Positions 5,587 to 13,713 of a stretch of 64,000 bases of DNA are shown piece by piece. Source of the DNA: Lysobacteraceae bacterium CU05-9 (GTDB taxonomy: Bacteria; Pseudomonadota; Gammaproteobacteria; Xanthomonadales; Xanthomonadaceae). The position numbers and the translations under genes are program-made. Under the pieces are notes generated by a model. It was not told where the DNA came from. It saw only the letters and a program-made list of their open reading frames with translations, and made no database searches. The DNA lies in NCBI GenBank assembly GCA_007556525.1, contig SWJS01000001.1, forward strand, positions 402,346 through 466,345. The letters are read 5' to 3'. The stretch's first letter is position 1. Every line of letters begins with the position of its first letter.

Positions 5587-7035
5587 ATGAATGTACCTAA
5601 TATAACCATCGCTGATTTCCTGCCGTTGATTCCGGAGATCATCGTGTTGGTCGGCGCATTTGGCATCCTGATGCTGGACCTCTTCATCAACGAACGCAAT
5701 CGCGTCGTGACGCACGTGGCGTCTTTGGTAGTCCTCGCCATCGCGTTGTTCGCGCTTGTGACGGGTGTTGGCGGTCACGGAGCTGTCCTCAACAGCATGT
5801 TCATCCGCGACACCGCATCGGATGTGATGTCCGGATGGATTGTGGCGCTGACGGGTGTGGCGATGGTTTTTGCCTATCCGTATTTCCGCGCGAAGGGCAC
5901 TTATCAAGGTGAGATCTCGGTACTGATGTTGTTTGCGACGCTCGGCATGATGCTGTTGGTGTCGGCGGGCAACATGACGATGATCTATGTCGCGCTGGAA
6001 ATGCTGGCTCTGTGTTCGTATGCGCTGGTCGTGTGTGAGCGTGAATCGCCGCGTGGCTCGGAAGCGGGCATTAAGTATTTCGTCCTGGGTGCTTTGGCGT
6101 CGGGTCTGTTGCTGTACGGCATGTCGCTGATTTACGGTGGCACGGGTACGCTGGATCTCGCTGCGATTTCACAAGCGCTGACTTCGGGTGGTGCGAATGC
6201 GATGCTCGTCACGGGCATGGTGTTTGTCGTCGTCGGCATCGCGTTTAAGTTCGGCGCAGCTCCATTCCACATGTGGCTCCCAGACGTTTATGACGGTGCG
6301 CCAGCTCCGATTACTTTGTTCATTGGTTCGGCTCCGAAAATTGCGGCATTCGGTATGGCTTACCGCATGTTGGAGCAGGGCACGGGTCCGTTGGGTGATC
6401 ATTGGCAGTTGATTCTCGCAGCGTTGGCATGTCTGTCGCTCGCGATTGGTAACTTGTCGGCATTGCGTCAAACGAACATCAAGCGTCTGTTGGCTTACTC
6501 GACGGTTTCGCATGTCGGCTTCCTGTTCATCGGTCTCGCATCGGGTGGTCCGGAAGGTTACGCAGCGGCGCTTTTCTACGCGATCACATACGCCATCATG
6601 TCTGCGTGTGCATTCGGTGTCGTTGCCTATCTGTCGCGTCAGGGCTTCGAAGCGGATCAATTGAGCGATTACGCAGGTTTGAGCAAGCGTAAGCCTTGGG
6701 TCGCTTTCATGATGTTGATGGCAATGGCTTCGATGGCAGGCGTTCCACCATGGATGGGCTTTTGGGCGAAGTGGTCAGTGCTATGGTCGGCCGTTCACTC
6801 CGACATGGTGTGGTTGGCGATCGTTGGTATCGTCGCTGCGGTCATCGGTGCGTTCTACTATCTGAAAGTCATCAAGGTCATGTACTTTGACGACGTTCCG
6901 GAACATGCGGCGATCGAGTTGCGCGATGACGGTGTGTCGGAAGGCATGCTGACGGTGTTGGGCGTTTCGTTGCTTGTTTTGGGTCTTTTCTTCGATCCGA
7001 TCATGCAGTGGTGCCGTTGGGCATTCGGCGCTTAA
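5587..7035 (+). CDS. nuoN: NADH-quinone oxidoreductase subunit N
   Basis: NuoN is the third antiporter-like subunit of complex I and the last gene of the nuo operon. The 482-residue protein shows HMWLPDVYDGAPAPITLFI near residue 222 and KRLLAYSTVSHVGFL near residue 299, both diagnostic. No terminator is evident between nuoN and the following initiator tRNA, so the nuo transcript may read into the tRNA. The tRNA also has its own promoter. Confidence 0.96.
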   Translation: MNVPNITIADFLPLIPEIIVLVGAFGILMLDLFINERNRVVTHVASLVVLAIALFALVTGVGGHGAVLNSMFIRDTASDVMSGWIVALTGVAMVFAYPYFRAKGTYQGEISVLMLFATLGMMLLVSAGNMTMIYVALEMLALCSYALVVCERESPRGSEAGIKYFVLGALASGLLLYGMSLIYGGTGTLDLAAISQALTSGGANAMLVTGMVFVVVGIAFKFGAAPFHMWLPDVYDGAPAPITLFIGSAPKIAAFGMAYRMLEQGTGPLGDHWQLILAALACLSLAIGNLSALRQTNIKRLLAYSTVSHVGFLFIGLASGGPEGYAAALFYAITYAIMSACAFGVVAYLSRQGFEADQLSDYAGLSKRKPWVAFMMLMAMASMAGVPPWMGFWAKWSVLWSAVHSDMVWLAIVGIVAAVIGAFYYLKVIKVMYFDDVPEHAAIELRDDGVSEGMLTVLGVSLLVLGLFFDPIMQWCRWAFGA

Positions 7036-7044
7036 GATAAGGGC

Positions 7045-7073
7045 TTGCGTTTAACGGTCGAAGTCCGTACAAT
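7045..7073 (+). promoter_or_regulatory. Promoter for the initiator tRNA gene
   Basis: A -35 box TTGCGT (7045-7050) and a -10 box TACAAT (7068-7073) are separated by exactly 17 bases. Transcription would start near 7080, seven bases before the mature tRNA. This is a sigma-70 type prediction from sequence alone. Confidence 0.7.
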
Positions 7074-7086
7074 ATTTCTTCTCTGA

Positions 7087-7163
7087 TGCGGGGTGGAGCA
7101 GTCTGGCAGCTCGTCGGGCTCATAACCCGAAGGTCGCAGGTTCAAATCCTGCCCCCGCTACCA
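7087..7163 (+). tRNA. Initiator tRNA-fMet (anticodon CAT)
   Basis: The 77-base gene folds as a cloverleaf with anticodon CAT in the loop CTCATAA. Three consecutive G-C pairs in the anticodon stem (GGG/CCC) mark it as an initiator, not an elongator. The acceptor stem starts with T and has T at position 72, so the 1-72 pair is mismatched, as initiators require; E. coli uses C-A here. The T arm is GCAGG-TTCAAAT-CCTGC and CCA is encoded (7161-7163). Confidence 0.97.
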
Positions 7164-7205
7164 TTATTGCAATGGTCTATGCTCTGACGCATCAGAACCG
7201 AAAGG

Positions 7206-7238
7206 CAGCTCCGTAGATTCTACGGGGCTGTTTTTTTT
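7206..7238 (+). terminator. Rho-independent terminator after tRNA-fMet
   Basis: A near-perfect inverted repeat, CAGCTCCGTAGA against TCTACGGGGCTG (one G-T wobble), is followed by eight T residues. It closes the tRNA (and probably nuo) transcript and separates it from the pxp operon. Confidence 0.9.
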
Positions 7239-7276
7239 CGGTTTGAATTTGTGCCAAAACACAGCAGAATGTCTGC

Positions 7277-7933
7277 ATGTCCTTGAACTTACGAATTCAG
7301 CCGCTCAACGAGCATAGCTTTCTGATTGCCCCTGCATTCGCGTCGGACGTTGACATTGCCGACCGTGCCGCAGGAATCCATGAATTGACGGCGTTACTCG
7401 AATCATCACAGTTGGATGGCGTGATTGATCTCGTTCCGGCGTATGAAACGGTGGCATTGTTCTTCGTCGACATCGACTCACGGCACCGTGCGGAGAAGCA
7501 GCTTAAGTCGCTGGAGTTCGCAGCCGGCAAATCCGTTGCCGCGGCTTCGAGACTTCACGAAATTCCGGTGGTTTACGATGGCGTTGATTTGCACAGTGCT
7601 GCTTCCGAGTTGCAGATGAGCGTCGATGAACTAATCGCGTTGCATAGCGGAGCGGAGTATACGGTGGCGATGGTTGGATTTTTGCCGGGGTTTCCGTACT
7701 TACTTGGAATGGATCCGCGTCTGTCGTTGCCGCGGTTGGAAACACCGCGTCCAAGTGTTCCGAAGGGTAGCGTCGCAATCGGCGGTGCGCAGACTGGCAT
7801 CTATCCTGCGCAGAGCCCGGGTGGTTGGCGCTTGATTGGTGTCACGGATGTTGAGCTGTTTGATGCGTCACGCGCTGAGCCTTCGCTGTTGCGTGCGGGT
7901 GATCGTCTGCGTTTCGTGAGGGAATCTGACTGA
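7277..7933 (+). CDS. pxpB: 5-oxoprolinase subunit B (KipI-like)
   Basis: PxpB is one of three proteins of the ATP-dependent prokaryotic 5-oxoprolinase, which opens 5-oxoproline (pyroglutamate) to glutamate. The 218-residue protein belongs to the KipI/cyclophilin-like family; the segment MVGFLPGFPYLLGMDPRLS, followed by PRLETPRPSVPKGSVAIGG, is the family signature. Its stop and the pxpC start overlap as TGATG at 7931-7935. No ribosome-binding site is visible before the ATG. A weak TTGAAT / CAGAAT promoter (7243-7270) would place the transcript start at the ATG itself. Confidence 0.93.
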   Translation: MSLNLRIQPLNEHSFLIAPAFASDVDIADRAAGIHELTALLESSQLDGVIDLVPAYETVALFFVDIDSRHRAEKQLKSLEFAAGKSVAAASRLHEIPVVYDGVDLHSAASELQMSVDELIALHSGAEYTVAMVGFLPGFPYLLGMDPRLSLPRLETPRPSVPKGSVAIGGAQTGIYPAQSPGGWRLIGVTDVELFDASRAEPSLLRAGDRLRFVRESD

Positions 7934-8889
7934 TGGCGCGCGTGAAAGTTCTTAATGGTGGTTTCCTGTCGACCGTGCAGGATTACGGACGCGATGGCCT
8001 GCGGTCGATGGGCGTTGCGCGAAGTGGTGCGACGAACCGGCACGCGGCACGTATTGCGAATGCGTTGGTTGGGAATCATGGTGATGAAGCAGTCATGGAA
8101 TTTGCGCTGAAGGGCGCGACAATTTCGTTTGATAAGCCGATCTGCATCGCTGTGACTGGCGCGCCAATGAATCTGACTTGGGAAGATGGCAAAGGCAACA
8201 AAGTCGTACTGCCGATCTGTCGCCGCATCGAGCTTGCGCCAGGTACTTTGACGATGGGCAAAATCCGAATCGGCGCACGCAACTGGATGGCGTTTCGCGG
8301 TGGCGTTTCTGTGCCGTCGGTGATGGGCAGTCGAAGCACGGACTTGCGTGCCGGGTTCGGAGGCATGCACGGACGTACGCTGCAGAAAGGCGATGCGTTC
8401 ACCGTCGATTCGATTGCGTTCAAAGGTTTGCCGAAGTTTACGAAGTGGTGGGCGGATGCGTCCGTCGACGATTCTTTCGTGGGTGCCATTCGATACGTTC
8501 CACTCGGTGATGGGATTCGGATGAATGGTGAGTTTTTTCATGTGGATCCGCGGAGTAACCGACAGGGCATTCGCTTATTGCCGGAGGATGACCTGACGCT
8601 TGCCGATGCACCTGCAATTCAATATTCGGTTCCAGTTGCACCCGGCACGATTCAATGTCCACCGGACCAACATCCAATCATTCTCGGTGCAGATGCGCAG
8701 ACGGTTGGTGGATATCCCGTTCTTGGCTACGTGATTGAGCAAGATCTTGAGCGACTGTCGCAAGTGAAAGGACACGAGCGCATTCAACTCATGGCAATCT
8801 CGCAAGCGCATGCGGACCAGGAAGCTCAGCTTTATGCGCGCCGTCAGCAACGTTTGTTGCGCGCGATTGCAGACCGACTGGGTGACTGA
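7933..8889 (+). CDS. pxpC: 5-oxoprolinase subunit C (KipA-like)
   Basis: PxpC is the biotin-dependent-carboxylase-like (urea amidolyase AHS2-type) subunit of the 5-oxoprolinase. The 318-residue protein has the characteristic opening GGFLSTVQDYGRDGLRSMGV and the later signature DQHPIILGADAQTVGGYPVLG near residue 251. The gene overlaps pxpB by one base and is followed closely by pxpA, which fits a three-subunit complex made in equal amounts. Confidence 0.93.
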   Translation: MARVKVLNGGFLSTVQDYGRDGLRSMGVARSGATNRHAARIANALVGNHGDEAVMEFALKGATISFDKPICIAVTGAPMNLTWEDGKGNKVVLPICRRIELAPGTLTMGKIRIGARNWMAFRGGVSVPSVMGSRSTDLRAGFGGMHGRTLQKGDAFTVDSIAFKGLPKFTKWWADASVDDSFVGAIRYVPLGDGIRMNGEFFHVDPRSNRQGIRLLPEDDLTLADAPAIQYSVPVAPGTIQCPPDQHPIILGADAQTVGGYPVLGYVIEQDLERLSQVKGHERIQLMAISQAHADQEAQLYARRQQRLLRAIADRLGD

Positions 8890-8896
8890 TTTGACG

Positions 8897-9637
8897 ATGC
8901 GGACTTCGATTGATTTCAATTGTGATCTTGGAGAAGGCTGCGGCTCCGATGCCGACATCATTCCGTTGATTTCATCCGCGAGCATTGCGTGTGGTGGCCA
9001 TGCGGGTGAGGTCGTTTCGATGCGGGAGACTTTGCAGCTTTGCGCGGAGCATGGCGTGATCGCAGGTGCGCATCCTTCTTATCCGGATCGCGAAAATTTC
9101 GGTCGCGTGCCGATGGACATCGAGCATGCTGCTTTGCGTGATTCGCTCATTGAGCAGTTGCGGTCGTTGCAGGTCATCGCGAACGAGGTTGGCGTGACGT
9201 TGCGTCACATTAAACCACATGGTGCGTTGTATAACGATGCGGCGAAGGATGCTTTGCTTGCTGATGTTGTTTTGGATGCGGTCGAGCAAGTCGATCCCGC
9301 GTTGCAAGTGATGGGCTTGGCGGGATCCTTGCTGATTGAGCAAGCAAGTGCGCGAGGCTTCGGCGTCATCGAGGAAGCCTTCGTGGAGCGCGGCTATCAA
9401 GCGAATGGGCAGCTCGCGCCGCGTGGAACTCCGGGTGCAGTTTTGGAAACGATTGAAGCTTCATTGGCGCAACTGGATGACATTGTGCGCAACGGTGAAG
9501 TCACAGCGGTGAGCGGAGAGCGCATTGCGTTGAGGGCCGATACTGTTTGCCTGCACGGCGATCGAGAAGATGCGGCGGCGTTTGCGCGTGATTTACGAAA
9601 TCATTTGGACCAAATTGGAATTGAGGTGAAAGCATGA
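8897..9637 (+). CDS. pxpA: 5-oxoprolinase subunit A (LamB/YcsF family)
   Basis: PxpA is the LamB/YcsF-family subunit of the 5-oxoprolinase. The 246-residue protein begins MRTSIDFNCDLGEGCG and carries SIACGGHAG and HIKPHGALYN, both typical of the family. The frame is open upstream into pxpC, but the ATG at 8897 places the conserved DFNCDLGE motif at the normal position near the N-terminus; TTG at 8891 is an alternative. The stop overlaps the start of the next membrane-protein gene as ATGA. Confidence 0.94.
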   Translation: MRTSIDFNCDLGEGCGSDADIIPLISSASIACGGHAGEVVSMRETLQLCAEHGVIAGAHPSYPDRENFGRVPMDIEHAALRDSLIEQLRSLQVIANEVGVTLRHIKPHGALYNDAAKDALLADVVLDAVEQVDPALQVMGLAGSLLIEQASARGFGVIEEAFVERGYQANGQLAPRGTPGAVLETIEASLAQLDDIVRNGEVTAVSGERIALRADTVCLHGDREDAAAFARDLRNHLDQIGIEVKA

Positions 9638-10308
9638 GCGCATTGCCGTTACTGGGCGTGCTGGTTGTCGTCATAGGATTCGTCCTGCGCTTCAATCCGG
9701 TGTTGGTGGTTGTCGTTGCGGGATTGATCAGCGGATTGCTGGCGGGCATGTCGATCACCGAGTTGCTCGGATTGATCGGTGAATCGTTTGTGTCGAACCG
9801 GGCGTTGCTTTTGTTCCTCATTACCTTGCCAGCGATTGGCTTGCTGGAGCGTGCAGGTTTGCGTGAGCACGTGCATCAGTGGATCTTCAAGATGCAGAAG
9901 TTGACCCTGGCCAAAATGCTCACAGGTTATCTCGCTGCACGGCAATTGCTGAGCATGGTCGGGCTGACGCACGTCGGTGGACCAGTGCAAACGGTGCGAC
10001 CTTTGTTGGCGCCGATGAGTGAGGCGGCGGCGGAGAAGTCTTTTGGCAAGTTGAGTGAAGACGATCGTCAACGTTTGCTTGCATTTGATGCGGCGACGGA
10101 TAACGTCGGATTGTTCTTCGGCGAAGATGTGTTCGTTGCGATTGGTGCCGTGTTGTTGATTCAAGGCTTCTATGCGGAGAACGGCATCGTCCTGGAGCCA
10201 TTGCATATTGCGCTGTGGGCGATTCCAACGGCGATTGCTGCGTTCATCATTCATGGCTTCCGAATCCATCTCTTCCAGCGTGACCTCAAGAAGCGATACA
10301 CCCCATGA
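9634..10308 (+). CDS. DUF969-family membrane protein, candidate pyroglutamate transporter subunit
   Basis: The 224-residue protein has several hydrophobic segments (for example residues 2-40 and 45-70) and resembles the DUF969 family. Its start overlaps the pxpA stop and its end overlaps the next gene by ATGA, so it is embedded in the pyroglutamate operon. DUF969 and DUF979 proteins occur as neighbouring pairs, often beside pcp. I infer that the two form one transporter for pyroglutamate or pyroglutamyl peptides. No transport activity can be read from the sequence itself. Confidence 0.75.
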   Translation: MSALPLLGVLVVVIGFVLRFNPVLVVVVAGLISGLLAGMSITELLGLIGESFVSNRALLLFLITLPAIGLLERAGLREHVHQWIFKMQKLTLAKMLTGYLAARQLLSMVGLTHVGGPVQTVRPLLAPMSEAAAEKSFGKLSEDDRQRLLAFDAATDNVGLFFGEDVFVAIGAVLLIQGFYAENGIVLEPLHIALWAIPTAIAAFIIHGFRIHLFQRDLKKRYTP

Positions 10309-11267
10309 TTACGATGGCGAATTTTTATCAGATTCTTTCGTTGTTCCTGATCTACGCGGCGTACCGGAATTTCAAGAGTGGGCTGTGGGCGAATGGTGGG
10401 TTTTGGTTGATGGTTGGCATCATTGCGATCAGCGGTGACTATGCGTTGGCGCAATCGAAACTCGGTAACAAACTTCCAGTGCAAATCATTGGTGCGGGTG
10501 TCGTTGCACTTGGTTTGCTCGCAACGAAAATGCAAAAAGGCAAAACCCAGGAACTCGCCGTCGAGCGTCGACGTGAATTGGCTGCGATCTTGGGGCACAA
10601 GCTTTTCATTCCTGCGTTATTGATTCCGTTGGTTACTGTGCTCGTTGTGATCTTCGGTGACTTCCTCACGAAGGGTTCCTTCAAGTTTCTTGGTGAAGGC
10701 AGTTTGACGTTGATGGGTTTGTCGCTCGCCGGCATCGTCGCGTTGATTGCGGCGGCGATCGTGACAGGGCAGGGGCGTTATTCGTTCCAGGAAGGCTCGC
10801 GTCTGCTCGACTCCATGGGCTGGGCTGCATTGTTGCCATTGATCCTTGCGGTGTTGGGCGGTGTTTTTGCCAAAAGCGGTATCGGTCAAACCATTGCCGA
10901 CGGGATCTCGATGGTGATTCCAACGGACAGTAAGCTGGCGTGTGTGTTGGCGTATGGATTGGGCATGGTGATATTCACTGTGATCATGGGTAATGCGTTT
11001 GCAGCATTTCCGGTGATGACGGCGGGCATCGGTCTGCCGTTGTTGATCGGTAAGCATGGCGCGGATCCGGCGATCATGGGTGCGATCGGAATGCTGACGG
11101 GTTACTGCGGTACTTTGCTGACGCCGATGGCTGCGAACTTCAATCTTGTTCCTGCAGCGCTGCTGGAGTTGCGTGATCCCAATGGCGTCATTCGCCAACA
11201 GGTCGCGACATCAATTCCATTGATGATCGTGAATATCGCATTGATGTACTTCCTGATTTTCCGTTGA
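10305..11267 (+). CDS. DUF979-family membrane protein, candidate pyroglutamate transporter subunit
   Basis: The 320-residue protein is strongly hydrophobic with about eight membrane segments and resembles the DUF979 family. The C-terminal half has glycine-rich intramembrane stretches (AFPVMTAGIGLPLLIG, then MLTGYCGTLLTPMAANFN) of the sort seen in secondary carriers. It overlaps the DUF969 gene and lies 7 bases before pcp. As with its partner, a transport role is inferred from context and topology only. Confidence 0.75.
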   Translation: MITMANFYQILSLFLIYAAYRNFKSGLWANGGFWLMVGIIAISGDYALAQSKLGNKLPVQIIGAGVVALGLLATKMQKGKTQELAVERRRELAAILGHKLFIPALLIPLVTVLVVIFGDFLTKGSFKFLGEGSLTLMGLSLAGIVALIAAAIVTGQGRYSFQEGSRLLDSMGWAALLPLILAVLGGVFAKSGIGQTIADGISMVIPTDSKLACVLAYGLGMVIFTVIMGNAFAAFPVMTAGIGLPLLIGKHGADPAIMGAIGMLTGYCGTLLTPMAANFNLVPAALLELRDPNGVIRQQVATSIPLMIVNIALMYFLIFR

Positions 11268-11274
11268 GGATGCG

Positions 11275-11919
11275 ATGAGCAATATTCTTCTGACAGGCTT
11301 CGCACCGTTCGGCGGTGAATCGACCAATCCCAGTTGGGAAGCCGTCAAGCAACTGGACGGTGCGCGAATCAAGGGTCATCGCGTGCATGCACGTGAAATG
11401 TCGGTGGTGTTCGGTGTTGCGAATAAGGAGCTGCGCAAGTGGATTCGGGAGCTGAAACCTGCGTTGGTCATCTGCGTTGGACAAGCAGGTGGTCGCGCCA
11501 CGATGTCATTGGAGCGAGTTGCAATCAACGTCGATGATGCACGCATTCCCGATAACGGCGGACAGCAACCCATCGATGAAGTGATTGTTGCCGACGGACC
11601 GGATGCTTACTTCACTTCATTACCTATCAAGGCGATGTTACGTGACATGAAAGCGGCGGGCATTCCTGTGGCGATATCGCAAACGGCGGGGACGTTCGTG
11701 TGCAATCACGTTTTTTATGGGTTGATGCATACGATAAGAACCCGCAAAAAAATGCGCGGCGGCTTCATCCACATTCCGTTTTCGCCGGAACAGGCTGCGC
11801 AACATGCAGACGCACCATCACTCGCCATCGATACGATCGTGCACGGTTTGCGGATTGGCATTACGACTTGCTTGAAGACCGATAAGGACGTGGCGATCGT
11901 CGGCGGCGCGGAGCACTAA
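11275..11919 (+). CDS. pcp: Pyrrolidone-carboxylate peptidase (pyroglutamyl peptidase I)
   Basis: Pcp is a cytosolic cysteine peptidase (family C15) that removes N-terminal pyroglutamate from peptides. The 214-residue protein has the expected triad Glu80 (SLERVAIN), Cys143 (TAGTFVCNHVFYGL) and His166 (FIHIPF). Its product is the substrate of the PxpABC enzyme encoded upstream, so the operon makes a closed route from pyroglutamyl peptides to glutamate. The stop codon overlaps that of the convergent minus-strand gene (11916-11919). Confidence 0.96.
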   Translation: MSNILLTGFAPFGGESTNPSWEAVKQLDGARIKGHRVHAREMSVVFGVANKELRKWIRELKPALVICVGQAGGRATMSLERVAINVDDARIPDNGGQQPIDEVIVADGPDAYFTSLPIKAMLRDMKAAGIPVAISQTAGTFVCNHVFYGLMHTIRTRKKMRGGFIHIPFSPEQAAQHADAPSLAIDTIVHGLRIGITTCLKTDKDVAIVGGAEH

Positions 11920-12758
11920 GCTTTCGTTGCTACGAAGTCCAAGTCAAAAACACCCGCCGTCATCCTCACTTCCGGACCACCTTCAACGCGTTCGCCATCA
12001 ACGAGCAAACTGACGCCGTGACGCGGTGCGCGCACTTCCACGCATTGCTTAATGCCGAGATCTTCGTGCGGCCCGTTGCGGAAGTCTTTCATCAACCACG
12101 CAACGCCATGCTTGGCGAGATCACCCAGCGTTTGCGCTTCGAATGAAGTGACATGCAAGCCGTCGGAGTAGGGCTCGACGAACAGGGACGGCGTATCGTC
12201 CTCGATCAATTCGTTATCGCCATCGACGACTTCCGGTCGTTCGCCGTGTAACGTTTCGCGCAAGGCATTTTGGGAGTGCTCGACAACCGCAGCAAGGTCC
12301 CGCTCGCGCAACGCCTCACGGACATCGCTCCATGACGCGGTCGGTCCGGCAATGACGCCACAGAAGGAGACCAGATCGTTTAGATTGACGATGGGGAGTT
12401 TTTGCAAGGTGACTGGCTCACTCAAAGCGCGCCGCACGATCTTATCGCTGCCGAGGGTTTCGCCATGCAGGTTGCGCGCGACAAAATTCATCGTACCTCC
12501 AGGCAAAGCCAACACCGCTCCGTCCCATCCTTCCAGCCCACGCGCCAACGAGTTCAGTGTTCCGTCGCCGGTGTGATTCGCAATCCACTCCACATCAGCC
12601 GCCCGTAGGTCAGAAGGTGTGGGTAACTCGGATTCCGCCACATCGATCACGCGATCCAGCGACCAGCCGCTGTGCGAAGCGATCAATGCCAGACGCTCGG
12701 GTAGGTCCGGGTCGAAGCTACCGCTGCGGGAGTTCACGTTGAGCCAGAGCTTGCGCAT
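11916..12758 (-). CDS. Diacylglycerol kinase catalytic-domain protein (lipid kinase-like)
   Basis: The 280-residue protein starts MRKLWLNVNSRSG and carries the nucleotide-binding motif GDGTLNSLARGL and the following LPGGTMNFVARN. These are the hallmarks of the DAGK catalytic domain shared by diacylglycerol kinases, YegS and sphingosine-kinase-like enzymes. The usual GGDGT is TGDGT here. The substrate cannot be told. The ATG at 12758 was preferred over an upstream in-frame ATG because it starts directly at the conserved beta strand. The gene runs against the operons on either side. Confidence 0.8.
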   Translation of the reverse strand: MRKLWLNVNSRSGSFDPDLPERLALIASHSGWSLDRVIDVAESELPTPSDLRAADVEWIANHTGDGTLNSLARGLEGWDGAVLALPGGTMNFVARNLHGETLGSDKIVRRALSEPVTLQKLPIVNLNDLVSFCGVIAGPTASWSDVREALRERDLAAVVEHSQNALRETLHGERPEVVDGDNELIEDDTPSLFVEPYSDGLHVTSFEAQTLGDLAKHGVAWLMKDFRNGPHEDLGIKQCVEVRAPRHGVSLLVDGERVEGGPEVRMTAGVFDLDFVATKA

Positions 12759-12838
12759 GATGGAGGAAACCTTGGAAAGGCGGATTTCGGCTAGCATACG
12801 CAACTGAACCTAAACAGGACGTGCACAGCCCCGAGAGG

Positions 12839-12867
12839 TTGAAAAATCCCCCGTTTCTGCGTAAAAT
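12839..12867 (+). promoter_or_regulatory. Promoter of the rimP-nusA-infB operon
   Basis: TTGAAA (12839-12844) and TAAAAT (12862-12867) are spaced by 17 bases, a near-consensus sigma-70 promoter. The transcript would start near 12874, leaving an untranslated leader of about 218 bases before rimP. The 334-base stretch between 12759 and 13092 holds this promoter and the leader; I see no gene in it. Confidence 0.75.
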
Positions 12868-13028
12868 ATCGCTCTGAGACGAGTCAGGACTCCCTGTGAG
12901 GACGGCTCGGATTGTGACCAACACCGGTACGCATTATGAGGCGTTAAGGTCTTTGGGCCAGCTGCGGAAGCAACACGGAATGCCATTTTGGTTCCGACCC
13001 GCAGTCCGACATCCGTTATTCAGGACAA

Positions 13029-13056
13029 GGGGGCCACAGGGCCTTTCGTTGTTTTT
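13029..13056 (+). promoter_or_regulatory. Possible attenuator hairpin in the rimP leader
   Basis: GGGGGCC (13029-13035), loop ACAG and GGCCTTT (13040-13046) can pair with four G-C and three G-T pairs, followed shortly by a GTTTTTGG tract. This resembles a weak intrinsic terminator located in the leader about 40 bases before rimP. NusA, encoded in this operon, acts on such structures, so feedback attenuation is possible. The stem is weak and this is a tentative call. Confidence 0.35.
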
Positions 13057-13092
13057 GGCGTACTTAAACCCGAACCTGAAACAAGACGAGAC

Positions 13093-13713
13093 ATGTCCAC
13101 ACGAGCCAATTCCATTGAAGCGATCATCGCACCCTCGGTCGAAAGCCTGGGTCTCGAAGTCGTGGGAATCGAACAGCTGACCGCGCCAGGCGGTGTCTTG
13201 CTGCGCGTGTACATCGACTATCCAGCGGACCGTGATGCGGAATTGCCACCGGTCGGCATCGATGAATGCGAAGCGGCGAGCCGCGAAATTTCGGCGCAGC
13301 TGGACGTTGAAGATCCAATCACCAGCAACTACACGCTGGAAGTATCGACGCCAGGCATTGAGCGCCCGTTGTTTACGGCTGAGCAGTGCGCACGATTCAT
13401 TGGCGAAAATGCGAAGGTGACCCTGCGTATGCCAATCGAAGGACGCCGTCGCTTCACCGGCCGCATTGCGTCTGTCGAAGGCAACAATGTCACGTTTGAA
13501 ATTGATGGTGCGGCGCTGACGGTTGATTTTGGCAATGTAGATAAAGCCAAAATCGCACCCGATTGGGTCGCCCTCGGTCTTGCTCCTGCGAAGGGTAAGG
13601 ATGGCGCAGACCGCCGTCCCGGCAAGGCGAAGAAGAACAAACCAAATTCACGTAAATCCCATCCACTACATCCGCAATCGGCAGAAGAACTGTCGGATTC
13701 GGATCCAGAGTAA
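13093..13713 (+). CDS. rimP: Ribosome maturation factor RimP
   Basis: RimP assists maturation of the 30S ribosomal subunit. The 206-residue protein has the N-terminal domain segment SLGLEVVGIE, the motif YTLEVSTPGIERPLF near residue 78, and a C-terminal SH3-like fold. After about residue 155 it has a lysine-rich, polar extension absent from the 150-residue E. coli protein. The frame is open upstream, but the ATG at 13093 (MSTRANSIEA) matches the normal N-terminus. nusA follows after 8 bases. Confidence 0.94.
   Translation: MSTRANSIEAIIAPSVESLGLEVVGIEQLTAPGGVLLRVYIDYPADRDAELPPVGIDECEAASREISAQLDVEDPITSNYTLEVSTPGIERPLFTAEQCARFIGENAKVTLRMPIEGRRRFTGRIASVEGNNVTFEIDGAALTVDFGNVDKAKIAPDWVALGLAPAKGKDGADRRPGKAKKNKPNSRKSHPLHPQSAEELSDSDPE

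Follow-up and report, generated by a model that had tools for sequence, protein, structure and literature searches.

Which protein carries 5-oxo-L-proline (pyroglutamate) across the membrane of bacteria that degrade it is the question raised by a six-gene operon in Lysobacteraceae bacterium CU05-9. We analysed a 64,000-nucleotide stretch of contig SWJS01000001.1 (the window), in which genes for the three subunits of 5-oxoprolinase (PxpB, PxpC and PxpA) and for pyroglutamyl-peptidase I (Pcp) flank two genes for membrane proteins of the families DUF969 and DUF979. We consider it probable that the operon is a 5-oxo-L-proline salvage unit in which DUF969 and DUF979 act as a two-subunit secondary carrier for 5-oxoproline. 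According to PMC13274462, pyroglutamate arises spontaneously from glutamine and glutamate, and for this reason a widespread carrier would matter for nitrogen supply. The operon is an unexceptional example of an arrangement already known, and the carrier interpretation has already been proposed and partly supported in print; we add a neighbourhood survey, a preference for pyroglutamate over peptides as the substrate, a class of genomes without known 5-oxoprolinase, and the distribution pattern of a further family, DUF2891.

An earlier note on this DNA had described six genes for PxpB, PxpC, PxpA, two membrane proteins and Pcp, and this operon is confirmed. All six are open reading frames (ORFs) on the + strand between positions 7277 and 11919 of the window, in the order pxpB, pxpC, pxpA, DUF969, DUF979, pcp:

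7277..7933, + strand: pxpB, 5-oxoprolinase subunit B (PF02682, TIGR00370, YbgJ 5dud_B)
7933..8889, + strand: pxpC, 5-oxoprolinase subunit C, divergent (PF02626, YbgK 5dud_A)
8897..9637, + strand: pxpA, 5-oxoprolinase subunit A (PF03746, NF003814, YbgL 1xw8_A)
9634..10308, + strand: DUF969 membrane protein, candidate half of a 5-oxoproline carrier (PF06149)
10305..11267, + strand: DUF979 membrane protein, putative second subunit of that carrier, possibly similar in fold to the ion transporter superfamily (PF06166)
11275..11919, + strand: pcp, pyroglutamyl-peptidase I (PF01470, TIGR00504, 3lac_A)

The junctions are tight, as had been claimed: pxpB and pxpC overlap in TGATG, pxpA/DUF969 and DUF969/DUF979 overlap in ATGA, and 7-base gaps separate pxpC from pxpA (ATG at 8897) and DUF979 from pcp. 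The claim that pcp is the exception does not hold, its gap being equal to that between pxpC and pxpA.

All six proteins exceed their Pfam cut-offs. PxpB matches CT_C_D (PF02682, 8.7e-63), lies above the TIGR00370 cut-off and matches YbgJ (5dud_B, E 8.2e-36). PxpC matches CT_A_B (PF02626, 1.4e-60) and remains below both NCBIfam cut-offs (NF045499, 177 bits vs 500; TIGR00724, 205 vs 230.2); its identity therefore relies on Pfam, on its position in the operon and on the match to E. coli YbgK (5dud_A, E 1.3e-35). PxpA matches LamB_YcsF (PF03746, 7.6e-83) and YbgL (1xw8_A, E 1.6e-68), above two NCBIfam subfamily cut-offs (NF003814, NF003816) and below three equivalog ones; its start at 8897 was picked from family matches, and an in-frame ATG at 8810 is also open. 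The three 5-oxoprolinase genes are adjacent. Pcp belongs to Peptidase_C15 (PF01470, 2.9e-77), lies above the TIGR00504 cut-off, matches 3lac_A (E 5.4e-70) and retains E80, C143 and H166 in the motifs ERVAIN, GTFVCNH and GGFIHIPF, which we take to be the Glu-Cys-His catalytic residues. The activities of Pcp and PxpABC are those of their families: in the cytoplasm, Pcp would strip pyroglutamate from the N-termini of peptides, and PxpABC would open 5-oxoproline to glutamate, using ATP.

We determined the neighbourhood of the DUF969/DUF979 pair first among relatives of the window. DUF979 occurs in 27 of 60 genomes, a set made up of the window's genome and 59 others from its family or order, the order being read as Lysobacterales from the nearest named matches (among those listed, Lysobacter maris, arvi and soli at 60–61% identity). 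In stretches fetched around DUF979 of the 26 other genomes, the exact order pxpB-pxpC-pxpA-969-979-pcp on one strand recurs 15 times, which argues that it is not due to chance; in the remaining 11 regions at least one of the genes is not in view, and three of these regions (L031, L032, L042) are on contigs <8 kb. We then combined these 26 with the best 80 by similarity of at least 599 confirmed candidates, a selection that favours kin of the query and may hold one species in both sets, and inspected at most about 10 kb per side. DUF969 adjoins DUF979 in 105 of the 106 loci, and the exception (L065) starts 151 bases before DUF979. In view are pxpA or pxpB in 81 loci, pcp in 71, DUF2891 in 15 and an OplAH-type oxoprolinase in 6, the OplAH identity having been checked by Pfam at L029 and L123 only and the others matching a profile built from those two. 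Either pcp or pxp is present in 90 loci; the other 16 comprise six with OplAH, nine with DUF2891 only and a single locus without any partner (L032), on a contig that stops 1.0 kb further downstream. Even taken together, pcp and DUF2891 are not universal partners of the pair: in 18 of the 106 loci, some of them on short contigs, pxp is in view but neither of these two genes is.

Two draws of genomes not led by similarity were made (i) from Pseudomonadota and (ii) from Bacillota, the phylum of a Paenibacillus locus, with 199 genomes each. They gave 16 and 10 DUF979 matches, of which 15 and 9 lie above the cut-off (G174 at 21 bits and G343 at 22.8 bits were left out). Each of the 24 pair genomes, which comprise the window's own and those of L044, L098 and L134–L154, has pcp or DUF2891 no more than 1 kb downstream of DUF979. 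The gene is pcp in ten and DUF2891 in six of the 15 Pseudomonadota, one genome having both, and pcp in all nine Bacillota, once 894 bases on. The pair is accompanied by pcp or pxp in 10/15 and 9/9 genomes, and the other five have DUF2891, three of them also OplAH. Of the 15 Pseudomonadota, 12 have an oxoprolinase adjacent to the pair (nine pxp, with pxpA alone in L142, and three OplAH), and two have one at another genomic location (PxpA in G229, Hydantoinase_B in G171); a profile search of the genome of G070 found neither PxpA nor Hydantoinase_B. As for the Bacillota, L098 and L154 carry pxp next to the pair, L151 and L152 carry it at a distance of about 7 kb and G263 at another place in the genome, and a genome-wide search of the other four found none. 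The neighbourhood survey for which the earlier note had called therefore shows that pairs do not mostly occur away from pcp and pxp (90/106 loci; 19/24 drawn genomes), and the pair is linked genomically with 5-oxoprolinase or Pcp. The proposal of the pair as a carrier candidate is supported by these neighbours.

The two membrane proteins match their own families only in the Pfam search (DUF969, PF06149, 1.2e-81, five hydropathy peaks; DUF979, PF06166, 3.9e-98, nine peaks), so that both families are present and adjacent; neither has a match in NCBIfam. A sequence search of the PDB gave no match for DUF969 and none for single-sequence DUF979, and a KcsA match of the DUF979 profile (E 0.012 over 67 positions) was judged to be chance. 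No ORF with both domains was found among 128 DUF969 and 130 DUF979 ORFs. Structure models were built from 15-row alignments, for which deeper ones might do better, and reached a predicted local distance difference test score (pLDDT) of 78.6 with a predicted template modelling score of 0.65 for DUF979, and a pLDDT of 79.2 for DUF969. The best Foldseek candidate for DUF979 is YdaH (E 0.77). Alignment of the Foldseek candidates with VIA-align, for which Z >= 13 is advised for helical proteins, gave lower values throughout for DUF979: Pho90, Z 9.4 (root-mean-square deviation, rmsd, 4.9; 204 aligned); the bacterial dicarboxylate/sodium symporter 4f35, Z 9.3 (rmsd 9.8; 185 aligned); NaDC3, Z 9.0 (4.4; 196); and SiaQM, Z 8.9 (3.7; 137). 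The first 20 rows are all carriers (Z 9.4 to 6.2), which we take to belong to the ion transporter superfamily, and ABCG2 is next at Z 6.1. This resemblance of the model fits, without proving, the published clan assignment (PMC11467057). We infer that DUF969 and DUF979 would form one two-subunit secondary carrier, presumably with a coupling ion, each giving part of an ion-transporter-superfamily-like fold, and that this carrier most likely imports 5-oxoproline in this organism.

Published work points in the same direction. Niehaus 2017, as cited in PMC11467057 and PMC12795558, reported the operon link and suggested transport for DUF969/DUF979. PMC11467057 makes a Pfam clan link to ion-transporter-superfamily carriers and predicts a C. 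difficile DUF969/DUF979 heterodimer with an interface predicted template modelling score of around 0.9; a metabolic model of B. megaterium uses the pair as the transporter (PMC6904757). In C. jejuni, a cj0552-4 mutant loses 5-oxoproline use in a preliminary growth experiment (PMC12795558, 2026). The C. jejuni pair shares with the window the same two adjacent Pfam families and the tie to 5-oxoproline metabolism; its operon is described as DUF969, DUF979 and DUF2891, whereas in the window the pair stands between pxpBCA and pcp, and a search of the whole genome gave no match to DUF2891. In PMC10040529, Hydantoinase B, DUF969, DUF979 and DUF2891 form clusters 113, 115, 116 and 117, a list in keeping with loci such as L123.

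Three known kinds of carrier can be set beside the pair. The Nramp-type PxpT is required for growth of C. glutamicum on 5-oxoproline (PMC13274462); PxpT and YcsG of B. subtilis are membrane carriers encoded in a pxp operon, as the pair would be, but are single genes of the Nramp family, whereas the window has DUF969 and DUF979. Carriers of the DASS/INDY type and others of the ion transporter superfamily resemble the DUF979 model in the alignments above, but according to PMC11467057 they consist of one chain holding two repeats, whereas the window has two genes. TRAP systems include the Bordetella receptors DctP6 and DctP7, which bind 5-oxoproline and are encoded near 5-oxoprolinase (PMC13274462); such systems need a periplasmic receptor, and the Pfam search revealed none among the six genes of the operon.

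In favour of the carrier reading, Fisher tests on the 199 Pseudomonadota, which treat related genomes as independent although they are not, associate the pair with any pcp match (10/15 pair genomes vs 19/184 others, p 1.7e-6), with pcp >200 bits, a threshold chosen after seeing the list (10/15 vs 4/184, p 1.3e-10), and with DUF2891 (7/15 vs 6/184, p 4e-6). Several points weigh against the carrier reading. The association with pxpA is weak (10/15 vs 61/184, p 0.011), and 61 of the 71 pxpA genomes are without the pair. On a tree of 130 DUF979 sequences built by a quick method, 2 changes suffice for the pcp/DUF2891 label and 1 for the pxp/OplAH label if unlabelled rows are omitted; treating 'none' as a state of its own raises the numbers to 10 and 11. 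Because the labels need so few changes, the partner evidence comes from few independent events; the tree does not support many independent partner switches and indicates a few old events instead. With regard to fold, neither model had a Foldseek match at E <= 0.001, and in VIA-align the SiaQM and NaDC1 rows for DUF969 (Z 7.4) stand amid unrelated helical proteins that reach Z 8.5, with no clear family. A comparison of the DUF969 and DUF979 profiles by hhalign reached a probability of 0.15%, so that no homology was seen between them, both alignments being shallow (number of effective sequences 2.5). The literature searched contains no transport measurement for the pair, and the C. jejuni mutant is reported to have lost DUF969, DUF979 and DUF2891 together in a test that was preliminary (PMC12795558). 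Finally, 5 of the 24 drawn pair genomes (G070, G438, G310, G334 and G440) have Pcp but neither PxpA nor Hydantoinase_B, pcp adjoining the pair in all of them, and do not fit an importer feeding PxpABC.

In those five genomes import looks futile for want of a known 5-oxoprolinase, and export or a second substrate is for this reason a possibility; export, peptide import and companionship with an unrecognised oxoprolinase are all live possibilities there. The first of these, generalized, is that in certain hosts at least the pair would serve as a 5-oxoproline exporter: Pcp would free the compound from imported peptides and the unusable product would be expelled. The position of pcp directly beside the pair in these genomes suits this explanation, and secondary carriers can run both ways. 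In the window, however, export would waste substrate, PxpABC being encoded in the same operon, and the phenotype reported for C. jejuni in PMC12795558 is a loss of use. The five genomes could harbour a third, unrecognised 5-oxoprolinase; genome completeness of >=90 was requested in both draws, and among the five a value is printed for G070 alone (100). A literature search on 5-oxoproline export found no paper. We regard export as unlikely.

The alternative of a carrier that supplies cytoplasmic Pcp with pyroglutamyl dipeptides, and does not import free pyroglutamate, could account for the presence of pcp in view in 71 of the 106 loci and in 19 of the 24 drawn genomes, and for the five of the 24 in which no pathway enzyme other than Pcp was found. 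Another five of the 24 (G229, G171, G176, G238 and G197) have the pair without any Pcp match in the genome; all five have DUF2891 beside the pair, and all have PxpA or Hydantoinase_B. We searched for Pcp in 20 further genomes, chosen from 35 loci with no pcp beside the pair, and found no match in 19, whereas G022 has pcp elsewhere. In 14 of the 20, pxp is near the pair and Pcp is missing; five others have DUF2891 beside the pair, the stretch around the pair being the part inspected for oxoprolinase in them. Ten of the 19 Pcp-less genomes belong to Paraburkholderia, Caballeronia or Trinickia, and in these pxpBCA adjoins the pair. The existence of genomes with the pair and 5-oxoprolinase but no Pcp anywhere disfavours a peptide importer, and the phenotype reported for the mutant concerns free 5-oxoproline (PMC12795558). 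Dipeptide import is accordingly very improbable. The product of Pcp is the substrate of oxoprolinase and the sole compound common to both classes of genomes, so that 5-oxoproline is favoured; of the two substrates that the earlier note had allowed, the gene contents of these genomes favour pyroglutamate and speak against the pyroglutamyl peptide. Least probable of all is a role unrelated to 5-oxoproline transport, for instance as PxpABC regulators or scaffolds or as cation or glutamate carriers: cluster evidence alone cannot fix a substrate and no transport assay was found in the literature, but the pair accompanies two unrelated 5-oxoprolinases and, where neither is found, Pcp, an Nramp-family gene replaces it once (L157), and the DUF979 model resembles ion-transporter-superfamily carriers.

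The presumed carrier of 5-oxoproline is accompanied by partners that interchange. OplAH (Hydantoinase A/B), which is unrelated to PxpABC, precedes DUF969 in L029, L092, L100, L103, L110, L123 and L143–L145. At L157, DUF2891, an Nramp gene and pxpABC follow in a row, the Nramp gene occupying the expected place of the pair, and at L159 OplAH is followed by DUF2891 with no pair. DUF2891 is often found in the position of a missing pcp, and none of the 106 loci has both. Strict exclusion, and simple replacement as a rule, are refuted by L135 (pxpBCA-969-979-DUF2891-pcp), by L156 on a Streptomyces plasmid (pcp, then DUF2891) and by G217 (pcp beside the pair, DUF2891 elsewhere in the genome). Nor is DUF2891 a dedicated partner of the pair, as 6 of the 13 DUF2891 genomes of the Pseudomonadota draw are without a pair above the cut-off. 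We tentatively suggest, as a rather speculative extension, that the pair may be a two-way 5-oxoproline carrier, importing with PxpABC or OplAH and exporting the Pcp product where 5-oxoprolinase is missing, and that DUF2891 may be an unrecognised pyroglutamate enzyme that performs the step of Pcp or a neighbouring one in Pcp-less genomes. The survey thus yields two testable questions: (i) what the pair does with Pcp and no known 5-oxoprolinase in 5 of 24 genomes, and (ii) which role DUF2891 plays in genomes that lack Pcp.

Pyroglutamate operons repeatedly include DUF2891, whether or not they contain the pair (L135, L138, L143–L146, L155, L156, L157, L159). About 50 residues are invariant in 13 sequences, with no obvious signal peptide by eye. 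Solved structures of the family are 8ieu and 8iev, and a literature search found no paper naming either. On a Kosakonia plasmid typed as conjugative (L155), the order is DUF969-DUF979-DUF2891; among 72,556 plasmid records, 69 have DUF979 matches, 39 of these from Klebsiella.

Upstream of the operon lie two further features, preceded by an ORF at 5587–7035 that is presumably nuoN:

7087-7163: tRNA-Met
7200..7236, + strand: terminator-like hairpin (17 pairs) with T-run, 3' of tRNA-Met (terminator scan)

The scan found 10 sites in 6 kb vs 8.7 expected in shuffles, and the hairpin at 7200–7236 has the longest stem among those listed. It would set the operon apart from nuoN and the tRNA, and a promoter would therefore be expected between the hairpin and 7277; no sigma-70-like promoter was found before 7277 (1 in 6 kb vs 2.6 in shuffles). 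Downstream, a converging ORF with a weak DAGK_cat match (11916–12803, − strand; PF00781, 24.7 bits) shares the last four bases of pcp and is followed by rimP, which places the operon between tRNA-Met and rimP (window 7037–13100). The window's nuoN, rimP and nusA have no match in the stretches around DUF979 at 45 loci (26 relatives and the 19 nearest named matches), several of which are short contigs, and the location of the operon may be peculiar to this lineage. The G+C content of the operon (54.7%, vs 54.9% for the window) gives no sign of recent foreign origin. The 2.35-Mb genome holds one DUF979, and a profile search of it gave no match to DUF2891 or Hydantoinase_B.

In some relatives the operon contains an additional gene. 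A DUF885 gene lies between pxpC and pxpA in L035, L047, L048, L050, L057 and L119, which are all six loci with a gap >1.8 kb at this junction. No HExxH motif occurs in any of the six proteins; five of the six N-termini, as called, resemble lipoprotein signal peptides, and by this feature the DUF885 proteins look like exported extra members of the operon.

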